In this document: one piece after another, positions 2,308 to 45,670 of the stretch
Layout of the letters: every line of letters begins with the position of its first letter
Position numbering within the stretch: the first letter of the stretch is position 1
Assembly: GCF_009650765.1 (NCBI RefSeq)
Contig: NZ_CP045740.1
Span: forward strand, 2,666,001 to 2,730,000
Direction of reading: 5' to 3'
DNA length: 64,000 bases
Origin: Streptomyces sp. SUK 48
GTDB taxonomy: Bacteria > Actinomycetota > Actinomycetes > Streptomycetales > Streptomycetaceae
The notes under the pieces: model-generated
Seen by the model: only the letters and a program-made list of their open reading frames with translations
The model's database searches: none
What the model was told of the DNA's origin: nothing
Program-made: the position numbers and the translations under genes

Positions 2308-2382
2308 GGTCAGGAGGCTATGTCAGGTACGCGCGGCGCAGAGGTTAGGTTGGGGGTCAGGCTAGGGGAGGTTCCGGAGCAG

Positions 2383-3381
2383 GTGGAGCGCAGGACGATC
2401 GGCGCGGGGGCGCTCGCGGTGGGGGCCGTCGGACTCGGGTGCATGCCGATGAGCTGGGCGTACACCACCTCACGGCAACGGGGCGACGAGTCGGTGAGAT
2501 GCGTGCACCGGGCGCTGGACCTGGGGTCGGGCCTGCTGGACACCGCGGACATGTACGGCCCGTTCACCAATGAGCTGCTGCTCGGGCGGGTGCTGAAGGA
2601 GCGGCGGGCCGACGCGTTCGTCTCCACGAAGGTGGGGCTGCTGGTGGGCGAGCAGCACATCGTGGCCAACGGCCGCCCCGGCTATGTGAAACGGGCCTGC
2701 GACGCCTCGCTGCGCCGCCTCCAGACCGATGTGATCGACCTGTACCAGTTGCACCGCCCCGACCCCGAGGTGCCGATCGAGGAGACCTGGGGCGCGATGG
2801 CCGAGCTGGTGCGGGCCGGGAAGGTGCGCTCGCTCGGCCTGTGCGCGCTGGGCGCGCGCGGCGGCCGCCGCTCGGGCACCGGCCTGCACGACGGCACCCT
2901 GCGCCTGTTGCAGCGGGCGCAGCAGGTGTTCCCGGTGGCCGCGGTCGAGGCCGAGCTGTCGGTGTGGTCGCCGGAGGCGCTGCGGACGCTGCTGCCCTGG
3001 TGCGAGGCGCGGGGCGTGGGCTTCCTTGCGGCGATGCCGCTGGGCAACGGCTTCCTGACCGGCACGCTCACCCCGGGCGAGGGCTTCGAACCGGACGACG
3101 TCCGCGCCCGGCACCCCCGGTTCACCGCCGAGATGATGGCCGCCAACCAGCCGATCGTGGCCGGCCTGCGCCGCGTCGCCCGGCGGCACGGCCCCGAGGT
3201 CACCCCGGCGCAGGTCGCGCTGGCCTGGGTGCTGTCGCGGGGCCGCCATGTGATCGCGCTGCCGGGCACGAAACGGGAGCGCTGGGCCGCGGAGAACGCG
3301 GCGGCGGCCGGGCTGCGGCTGTCGGCGGCGGACCTGGCGGAGATAGGGCGGCTGCCGGGGGCGCGGGGGTCGTGGGACTGA
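2383..3381 (+). CDS. Aldo/keto reductase
   Basis: NADPH-dependent oxidoreductase with a TIM-barrel fold. The catalytic tetrad is visible: Asp and Tyr in LLDTADMYG, Lys in VSTKVG and His in LYQLHRPD. The C-terminal cofactor region shows IALPGTKRERW. GTG at 2383 is chosen because the family begins right there (VERRTIGAGALAVGAVGLG) and GGGGAGG lies ~11 bases upstream. The upstream ATG at 2320 is only two bases from its AGGAGG and adds a non-conserved leader. It is divergent from the hydroxyacid dehydrogenase; substrate unknown. Confidence 0.88.
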   Translation: MERRTIGAGALAVGAVGLGCMPMSWAYTTSRQRGDESVRCVHRALDLGSGLLDTADMYGPFTNELLLGRVLKERRADAFVSTKVGLLVGEQHIVANGRPGYVKRACDASLRRLQTDVIDLYQLHRPDPEVPIEETWGAMAELVRAGKVRSLGLCALGARGGRRSGTGLHDGTLRLLQRAQQVFPVAAVEAELSVWSPEALRTLLPWCEARGVGFLAAMPLGNGFLTGTLTPGEGFEPDDVRARHPRFTAEMMAANQPIVAGLRRVARRHGPEVTPAQVALAWVLSRGRHVIALPGTKRERWAAENAAAAGLRLSAADLAEIGRLPGARGSWD

Positions 3382-4937: not shown

Positions 4938-5591
4938 TCAGCTCGCCGACGGCAGTGCCAGCAGCGCGTCCGAGTACTTCAGGACGGCCAGCAGCAGGCC
5001 GATGACGCCGAGCGAGACGCCGGCCCAGGCCACCGACTTGATCCAGGGCGCCTGCGAGCGGCCGGGGGTGCCGAAGGCGGGGCGGGCGAGGACGACCACG
5101 CCGGTGATCAGCGCGAGCAGCGCGAAGAAGCCGGCCCACAGCGCGGTGGTGTGCCAGGCGTCGCCGTAGACCGCCTTGATCTGGGTCGCGACGCCCGCGG
5201 TGGAGGACGTCCGCAGCTGGCCGACGAGCTGCTGGCGGGCGCCCGCGACCGTGCCGATCCAGCCACCGCTGAGCGAGACCAGGCCCAGCGCGGCGGAGAC
5301 CACGGCACCGGCACCCTGGCCGACCCCGGAGGGCGCCTTGGCGTCCGCCGCCTCGTCCTCGAACTCGTCCACGGGCTCCGATGCCGTCTGTGCGGCGGGC
5401 GCGCTCTCGGCCGCCCCCTCGGTGCCCCCGGCCGGCGCGCCCTCGGCGCTCACGCCCTCGGTCTCCGCCTTCCCCGCGGTGTCCTTCCCCGCGGTGTCCT
5501 GCCCCGCGGTCTCGGCCCCCTGTGCCGTCTCGTCGTCGTGCCGCGCCGCCGTCGTACCGGCCGCGGCGTCTTCCGATGTCTTCGTTGCCAT
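4938..5591 (-). CDS. Putative membrane protein with acidic Ala/Gly/Thr-rich N-terminus
   Basis: 217 residues. The first ~90 are low-complexity and acidic, with a small tandem motif (TAGQDTAGKDTAGKAE) mirrored in the DNA at about 5482-5512. The second half has about four hydrophobic segments, including VVSAALGLVSLSGGWIG, WAGFFALLALITGVVVLA and SVAWAGVSLGVIGLLLAVL. I recognise no functional domain. It lies 45 bp downstream of the acetyltransferase on the same strand and may be the last gene of the MMPL transcript. Confidence 0.72.
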   Translation of the reverse strand: MATKTSEDAAAGTTAARHDDETAQGAETAGQDTAGKDTAGKAETEGVSAEGAPAGGTEGAAESAPAAQTASEPVDEFEDEAADAKAPSGVGQGAGAVVSAALGLVSLSGGWIGTVAGARQQLVGQLRTSSTAGVATQIKAVYGDAWHTTALWAGFFALLALITGVVVLARPAFGTPGRSQAPWIKSVAWAGVSLGVIGLLLAVLKYSDALLALPSAS

Positions 5592-23481: not shown

Positions 23482-23592
23482 AACCCTTCCAGGGTACGGG
23501 GCCGCGGGGACCGGGCGGCGGGGTGCCGGAACCCGGAAAAATCATGGACCAGGCCCTTTATGTCTGGTATGGGCGGGCTTATTCTGAAGACA

Positions 23593-23783
23593 GACCTACG
23601 AGACGAGTGAGGGAGTCCAAGCGGAGTAGCCGACGTCAGCGTGAGACCGCGAGGGATCCGCTGGTGCCGACGTCGACGCTCGGGCTGAGAGGCCGGAAGG
23701 TCGCAGGACGGACCGGAAGGCGACCTCCAGACACCTGATCCGGACCATACCGGCGAAGGGAACCCGCCTCGTAGGTCGTTTTT
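23593..23783 (+). promoter_or_regulatory. TPP (thi-box) riboswitch with no downstream gene on its strand
   Basis: The 3' core ACCTGATCCGG (23733-23743) continues through CATACCGGCGAAGGGA (to 23761), a near-consensus TPP aptamer. CTGAGA lies at 23685-23690. AGTCC (23614-23618) can pair with GGGCT before it (P3), and AGGTCGC/GCGACCT form the usual extra hairpin. P1 is GACCTACGAG (23593-23602) paired perfectly with CTCGTAGGTC (23768-23777), followed by G and five T. A possible -10 TATTCT at 23580-23585 would start RNA near 23591. The P3 arm is unusually long. The next + gene is at 25704; the RNA points at the 3' end of the cysteine desulfurase gene. Confidence 0.82.
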
Positions 23784-23818
23784 CATGCCCTTTTCCGGGG
23801 GCGCCCACCGTCGCGGGT

Positions 23819-45264: not shown

Positions 45265-45448
45265 CGTGATCGTCCTCCCCTTGTCGTCGGCAATATCCAT
45301 GCCCGCTGGAAGTAAAGAGAAGGTAATGCCCGGTGTGCCACGGGCGGGTGCGCGTACCGCCACAGGTCGGTTACGGATCCGGCCCCTGACGGGCGGGGGT
45401 GCGACGTGCAATGATGTGGCCGCCAACTGCATACCGGCCGTTTGAATC

Positions 45449-45650
45449 CGCGCGGGAGAGTCCCCAGCAGGCTTCGCTGGGGCGCCGAAGGAGCAAGTCC
45501 CTCCCTTGAATCTCTCAGGCCCCGTTACCGCGCGGGCGAGGCACATCTGAAAAGCGGGCCGCCGTGACGGCGGCCCCACCCAAGGTGCAAACCGTGGTCG
45601 CCCCCGTGGCGGTTACGGCGAACCTCTCAGGTTCCGATGACAGATGGGGA
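45449..45650 (+). promoter_or_regulatory. Tandem glycine riboswitch upstream of gcvT
   Basis: Aptamer one (about 45449-45534) has GCGGGAGAGTCC, GCGCCGAAGGAGCAA and TTGAATCTCTCAGGC; aptamer two (about 45537-45650) has GAGGCACATCTGAAAAGC, GGCGAACCTCTCAGG and GATGACAGATGGGGA. These are the classical glycine-aptamer pieces in the classical order. Just downstream, GATGGGGAGGAAC can fold on GTTCCT-CG-CCCCATC (45643-45670), the probable switching hairpin. Glycine binding should turn on the gcv operon. Confidence 0.95.
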
Positions 45651-45670
45651 GGAACGTTCCTCGCCCCATC
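45643..45670 (+). promoter_or_regulatory. Expression-platform hairpin of the glycine riboswitch
   Basis: 7-bp GATGGGG/CCCCATC plus 6-bp AGGAAC/GTTCCT, with a CG bulge. It shares its left arm with the 3' end of aptamer two, so glycine binding and hairpin formation exclude each other. It ends 11 bases before the gcvT ribosome site (GGGAG at about 45682). Confidence 0.65.

Follow-up and report, generated by a model that had tools for sequence, protein, structure and literature searches.

In Listeria, an antisense RNA is controlled by a B12 riboswitch that is directed into a convergent gene. Other riboswitch-containing RNAs, namely SreA and SreB (SAM, Listeria) and EutX (Enterococcus), are reported to act as small RNAs in a portion of PMC4691137. 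For Streptomyces, an excerpt of the S. lividans reannotation (PMC8079986) gives two TPP switches, each ahead of thiamine genes. Among the titles listed from the open-access literature, none concerns a TPP riboswitch of actinobacteria that is orphan or stands alone. The main texts of two Streptomyces small-RNA papers (PMC3765725 and PMC2422843) contain neither thiamin nor ferredoxin; mnmA and desulfurase are absent from the main text of the former, and the SCO numbers 5486-5488 from that of the latter.

Here we describe an RNA element in a window of 64,000 nt from Streptomyces sp. SUK 48 (GCF_009650765.1, NZ_CP045740.1, positions 2,666,001-2,730,000); all positions are counted within this window. 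In our preferred reading, to which we assign a probability of about 0.6, the element is the gene for a stand-alone small RNA of ~190 nt that derives from a TPP riboswitch aptamer, would respond to TPP and would have its output in trans. Sequence comparison supports a unit found at different sites, which has its own promoter signature, a TPP-core fold of P1-P2-(P3 + extension)-P4/P5, an end at P1 with a short U-run, and no fixed neighbour. By analogy, the nearest precedents may be SreA/SreB, EutX and similar RNAs, in which a riboswitch is reported to serve as a small RNA. The present RNA differs from these in having a TPP-type aptamer and, it appears, a dedicated gene with a promoter signature of its own, in occurring in many genera and in having lost the sensor arm in some species. 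With the Listeria B12-riboswitch antisense RNA it shares the orientation towards a convergent gene, but the Streptomyces RNA has no conserved antisense neighbour.

A TPP-type aptamer in the window

The features of the element are collected in Table 1. The preliminary description of this DNA had proposed a TPP-type aptamer on the + strand, and the elements CTGAGA, ACCTGATCCGG and GCGAAGGGA can all be read directly, with RF00059 as the best match of the region. The perfect P1 and the -10-like box that it had pointed out before P1 are also present. The T-run was said to follow P1 at once; it is there, with a single G (23778) between P1 and the run. The flanking proteins, taken earlier as desulfurase and MnmA on the - strand, are indeed a class-V aminotransferase (PF00266), which we read as cysteine desulfurase, and an MnmA-type protein (PF03054), both on that strand, and no near + strand gene lies 3' of the element in the window, as had been stated. 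Elsewhere in the window, a tandem glycine riboswitch is found at 45443-45653 (+; 70.9 and 36.0 bits).

Table 1. Positions of the RNA element and its parts in the window
Feature	Position	Strand	Basis or remark
A-tract ~55 nt 5' of the RNA, possible UP element	23537..23541	+	read from the sequence
-10 box TATTCT, putative own promoter of the RNA	23580..23585	+	sequence
RNA element, P1 to P1	23593..23777	+	match to model R1 (G000:C1:2689593-2689777), 182.8 bits, not independent because this copy (L003) is among the 29 training sequences
P1, 5' strand GACCTACGAG	23593..23602	+	perfect 10-bp helix with 23768-23777
GGGAG, 5' strand of P2 and beginning of P3	23611..23615	+	in 151/158 relatives
Enlarged P3	23615..23685	+	GTCCAAGCG (23615-23623) pairs with CGCTCGGGC (23677-23685); alignment A1
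P3 extension capping P3	23623-23634 ... 23666-23678	+	GGAGTAGCCGAC ... GCCGACGTCGACG; alignment A1
CTGAGA of the TPP core	23685..23690	+	sequence; in 142/158 relatives
P4-P5 arm, remaining TPP core	23733..23761	+	ACCTGAT 23733-23739, GCGAAGGGA 23753-23761; RF00059 alignment
P1, 3' strand CTCGTAGGTC	23768..23777	+	pairs with 23593-23602
U-run (T-run) after P1	23779..23783	+	with P1, possible intrinsic terminator

An RF00059 hit above threshold had been named beforehand as one of the points on which the assignment would stand or fall. Formally the element fails it: RF00059 gives 30.4 bits (E 0.00043 for 501 bases) against a gathering score of 54.3. The fold is nevertheless present, and the score is likely low because P3 is enlarged. 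In the 29 aligned Streptomyces copies (that of the window included), P3 forms a long helix that is extended by ~50 nt; in the window, this helix has a single A-C mismatch between GTCCAAGCG and CGCTCGGGC. RF00059 matched 17 of the 20 Streptomyces loci scanned, with 32.1-46.1 bits (the best being L029, 46.1) and none at the cut-off, while at E 0.05 there was no match in the window's own locus (L003), L007 or L017. A further 24 loci, 23 of them outside the genus, likewise included none at or above the gathering score. Since none of the 44 loci scanned in total reaches it, these RNAs are probably hidden by the Rfam cut-off and unannotated in many Streptomyces genomes. In the window's genome, RF00059 has two matches at E <=0.001, scoring 63.3 and 50.1 bits (the latter under the cut-off), and the element is not among them; by our reading of the sequence, these two appear to stand before a thiO-like gene and a gene for an ABC-transporter binding protein.

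The element shares with RF00059 the conserved aptamer core and the layout of P1, P2, P3 and P4/P5, and the core letters GGGAG, CTGAGAGG, CGACC, ACCTGATCCGG and GCGAAGGGA are the same or nearly so. Among 158 relatives (the window not counted), GGGAG occurs in 151, CTGAGA in 142, ACCTGA in 146 and GCG.AGGGA in 136; left out of these counts is L318, which we read as an ordinary switch before a thiO-like gene. Model R1, which was built from 29 Streptomyces copies including that of the window, in turn gives 35-49 bits for 15 of the 16 ordinary TPP loci. Both ordinary switches with displayed R1 alignments have GGGAG, and they have in common GGGAGCCC/GGGCUGAGAGG and ACCUG-UCCGG-CCGGCGAAGGGA. TPP as the ligand would follow from this likeness. 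The differences from RF00059 are the score, a P3 larger by ~50 nt, the lack of a thiamine gene downstream, and the absence of P4-P5 from some Streptomyces relatives (12/99). In each of the 16 control loci, of which two are from the window's genome and 14 from the class sample, the ordinary TPP switch is followed by a co-directional gene. Of 159 loci, only L318, itself an ordinary switch, matched any of the 17 ORFs following the control switches. Because neither the cut-off nor the gene context of a cis-regulatory TPP riboswitch was found, we do not file the element as one; it is a TPP-aptamer-type RNA that probably forms a stand-alone small RNA. If TPP is sensed with no gene in cis to control, another output is needed.

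Distribution of the RNA family

Relatives with 70-93% identity are found by blastn in other genomes of the genus. With R1, 100 of 295 genomes of the genus have a match above 60 bits, one per genome (the 29 training copies are among these); the scores then fall from 68.8 to 47.2 bits, where ordinary TPP switches start. Six of 296 genomes in a class sample exceed 60 bits, one of these being outside the genus. In the window's family, R1 has matches at E <=1e-12 in 61 of 249 genomes, of which 32 belong to the genus and 29 to other genera. The RNA is also found in another order: matches at the same E value occur in 22 of 200 genomes of a family that we call f17 and suspect to be the Streptosporangiaceae, and in 10 of 200 genomes of the order of f17, where both figures include one genome (G626, 58.4 bits) that holds only an ordinary switch. 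Near one long-form TPP RNA (locus L014), a cobalamin riboswitch match lies at 2333-2404 (+), with 32.8 bits against a cut-off of 31.5.

Conservation as an RNA with a putative promoter and end of its own

We then examined pairing in an alignment (A3) of 60 sequences, mostly from outside the genus and none used to build R1. In it, 91.8% of cells pair. Changes on both sides were seen in 36 of 52 pairs, compared with a mean of 21.4 in shuffled alignments (none of 500 shuffles was as high) and with 7-18 pairs when the partner was slid by 1-3 columns. Eight of the 12 P1 pairs are among those with changes on both sides. These figures are favoured by the fitting of the alignment to the model. The first nine P1 pairs are all standard in 153 of the 158 relatives.

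The flanks are conserved as well. We compared 99 Streptomyces loci (98 of the genus plus L235) with a second set of 60 loci, among them L318 as well as three from the window's genus. A TAnnnT motif lies within 22 nt upstream in 99/99 Streptomyces loci (background 0.86%) and in 36/60 of the second set (background 1.3%). At -55 to -51, 63-88% of the 99 loci have A, and this A-tract may act as an UP element. Over 7 nt counted from the last base of P1, T averages 3.10 in the Streptomyces loci against a background of 1.00 (about threefold) and 2.68 against 1.02 in the second set. P1 and the U-run could terminate transcription.

Two further features after P1 were considered and set aside. An ATG or GTG is found 4-16 nt 3' of P1 in 77 of the 99 Streptomyces loci (background 30%; 23784-23789 in the window). 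The ORF lengths resemble the control and the 28 peptides inspected look unrelated, with no evident conserved ORF. A further terminator hairpin within 50 nt downstream was rejected for Streptomyces, where the folding energy is no better than in the control; in the second set it is slightly better (-17.5 vs -16.8).

In the small-RNA reading, transcription would start near 23593 and stop after P1, and the binding of TPP might close the P1/P2/P4 junction so that a compact, terminated RNA is favoured. P1 and the P3 extension would mediate the output in trans, by way of an RNA or protein partner, and TPP would be an input that some lineages have dropped. The conserved 12-mer GGAGTAGCCGAC was searched for an exact antisense target; its exact complement occurs 0 times in the window's genome, which speaks against this reading.

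Downstream genes and a DevR/OsdR-type box

The gene following the RNA bears on whether the RNA is a leader. With gene calls that are ORFs with high third-position G+C and not curated genes, the next gene of the Streptomyces long form is on the opposite strand in 85/99 loci and co-directional in 13/99, with none called in one. A leader of one gene family in Streptomyces was rejected on this count. Among the 13, six belong to one gene cluster (c24, which by our reading of the sequence may be NAD-binding/DUF2867-like) and two to another (c11). In five loci (L215 and L217-L220), the core has GCC for GCG, and the c24 gene on the same strand starts within ~75 nt of the RNA end or overlaps it; these possibly represent a cis-regulated or re-specified variant. 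In the second set, the next gene is opposite in 27 loci and co-directional in 32, with one lacking context (n=60). Since the next gene is co-directional in 32/59, a leader function is possible there.

In f17, 11 of 24 loci carry in the 70 nt upstream of the RNA a palindromic box that matches RGGGMCNNNNGKCCCY at 11-12 of the 12 specified letters, against a background of 9 of 1257 windows; 10 of the 11 boxes lie at -52 to -49. The box was spotted by eye before testing, so that its enrichment is post hoc. Thirty-six other loci of the window's family, a set including three loci of the window's genus (L265, L272 and L278) and an Embleya locus, have the box in nine cases (background 10/1954), all of them in one genus, g180 (9/17), where the box stands at -51 or -50 in every case. 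An excerpt of PMC5069765 gives AGGGCCGATCGGCCCT as the OsdR consensus. The predicted box upstream of the f17 and g180 copies is a candidate link to the DevR/OsdR dormancy regulon. In contrast, none of 98 Streptomyces copies reaches 11 of 12 letters, a count that does not include the window's own upstream region.

We scanned 126 proteins around the f17 loci except L296 and L318 (22 of 24). Within the first 25 of 123 families, short-chain dehydrogenases are the commonest (6), and phosphoribosyltransferase (5), FtsH/M41 (3), RtcB (2) and CBS (2) are also present; a KdpD/Usp protein is also among the neighbours. A co-directional gene lies within 260 nt in 13 of 23 long-form loci, the flank of L296 being too short to judge. 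The RNA might therefore be a cis leader riboswitch for non-thiamine stress genes in f17, including the phosphoribosyltransferase, FtsH, RtcB, CBS and KdpD/Usp types, with the gene lost in Streptomyces, and the upstream DevR/OsdR-type box could serve RNA and gene alike. We regard this as unlikely, since the remaining f17 loci have no such near gene and the Streptomyces copies retain promoter and fold, mostly with no same-strand gene downstream.

Loss of the P4-P5 arm

The P4-P5 arm (ACCTGA and GCGAAGGGA) is absent from 12 of the 99 Streptomyces loci, all at a site beside a TetR gene. In these 12 copies the promoter is still present, as are the two P1 strands and the P3 extension (GGAGTAGCCGAC ... 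GGCCGACRTCGACGG, exact or close), and two of them (L233 and L234) are 112 nt long, hardly more than P1 plus the P3 extension. As core-bearing copies exist in other genera and families, we take the absence of the arm as loss. Mapped onto a tree of 63 loci that was built from the neighbouring glycosyltransferase alone, the arm label needs four changes, two of them forced by well-supported branches; a first tree, with L222 on a long branch, needed five. The tree suggests that the arm was lost in two to four events.

Model R2, built only from the 12 arm-less copies, recovers copies that bear the core; most of these score 83-129 bits, and three score 45-52. Core-less copies that might have escaped R1 were also sought with R2, and the 88 genomes (of 291) with an R2 match all belong to the 100 found with R1. 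We read this pattern as an effector (P1 plus the P3 extension) that may be separable from the TPP input. Two observations weaken such a reading: L317 shows the reverse loss, with CTGAGA gone and P4-P5 kept, and outside Streptomyces the P3 extension conserves pairing but not letters.

The arm-less copies could also mean that the small RNA uses the TPP-aptamer fold as a scaffold only and that TPP sensing is gone, as they keep promoter, P1 and P3 extension with no P4-P5. This is improbable for the family, because most copies keep the core letters (136-146 of the 158 relatives for CTGAGA, ACCTGA and GCG.AGGGA), which a free scaffold would presumably not need.

Returning to the trans-acting, TPP-responsive RNA, a broader scheme can be put forward tentatively. 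A TPP aptamer might have become a relocatable small-RNA gene with a separable sensor (P4-P5) and effector (P1 plus the P3 extension), acting in trans. This gene would have come under the control of a hypoxia/dormancy regulator in certain actinobacteria, and in Streptomyces it would later have lost the TPP sensor several times, with the effector retained. If true, thiamine status would be connected with dormancy or stress, and the change of a riboswitch into an ordinary small RNA could be seen in progress. Next to one and the same TetR gene, copies that have the sensor arm and copies that lack it occur naturally and allow a ready comparison, and whether riboswitches can turn into independent small RNAs would then be open to direct testing in laboratory strains of Streptomyces.

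Genomic neighbourhoods and the desulfurase

We then compared the neighbourhoods of the 99 Streptomyces loci. The RNA converges on a TetR gene in 63, has TetR upstream in one, lies by mnmA/nifS in 12 (the window locus being counted in addition to these) and is elsewhere in 23. Since the 63 TetR loci seem to go back to a single inherited site, they are not 63 independent observations; the distance from the element to the TetR 3' end has a median of 61 nt (range 6-1314). No mnmA/nifS was found within 2.5 kb of the 59 second-set loci listed, at the identity limits used.

Sites with and without a copy were also compared. The ferredoxin-TetR site of the window's genome has no copy of the RNA. The nifS loci (with 1.5 kb flanks) have none in six genomes with a copy at TetR, nor in three genomes lacking a match above 60 bits; as positive controls, three mnmA/nifS genomes do show the copy at that site. 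This comparison places the RNA, with its promoter and end, at different addresses, and the RNA sequence is kept at these sites.

The preliminary description had offered either a stand-alone TPP-sensing transcript or an antisense RNA into the desulfurase 3' end. The former, taken as a TPP-type transcript, is supported by sequence, given the promoter signature, the U-run, the lack of a fixed downstream gene and the presence in many species. The latter does not hold as a conserved function, because the neighbourhoods vary and the alternative site lacks the RNA in the genomes checked: the position between desulfurase and mnmA is conserved in only the 12 of 99 Streptomyces loci, the remaining loci lying elsewhere, and in 0/59 of the second set. 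A conserved position antisense to one gene, as in riboswitch-controlled cis-antisense RNAs, was likewise not found, several different neighbours being present. Any antisense effect that ties the RNA to sulfur supply would be confined to a single group of species. In the preferred reading, the RNA is neither a regulator of a downstream thiamine gene nor a conserved desulfurase antisense.

A more general form of the antisense idea is a TPP-gated cis element, from which, when TPP is lacking, read-through beyond P1 would yield antisense RNA to whichever gene is adjacent (the desulfurase here). P1 and the U-run could be a TPP-favoured terminator, and a close convergent gene is present in many loci, as the short distance to the TetR 3' end illustrates. 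We consider this very doubtful, since the neighbour varies from locus to locus while the RNA sequence is preserved at different sites.

Clustered copies and mobile elements

We found no match in 50,697 phage records. Two plasmid records have a match: a 5.7-Mb linear record of Embleya sp. NBC_00888 contains a relative at 115 bits, and in the record of Nonomuraea gerenzanensis the match spans 41 nt only. A decaying relic or selfish dispersed repeat, to which the sporadic distribution, the several sites and three copies within ~76 kb in one genome could point, is the most improbable explanation in view of the covariation, the -10 box in 99/99 loci, the single copy above 60 bits in each of 100 genomes and the absence from the phage records; a relic of a lost thiamine gene, the fallback of the preliminary description, is disfavoured by the covariation and the conserved -10 box.

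The three clustered copies (L268, L273 and L281) are in a g180 genome (G817), near one contig end. In two other loci, tRNA genes lie near the copy, at 4287-4371 in L265 (~110 nt from the element) and at 5047-5119 in L288.
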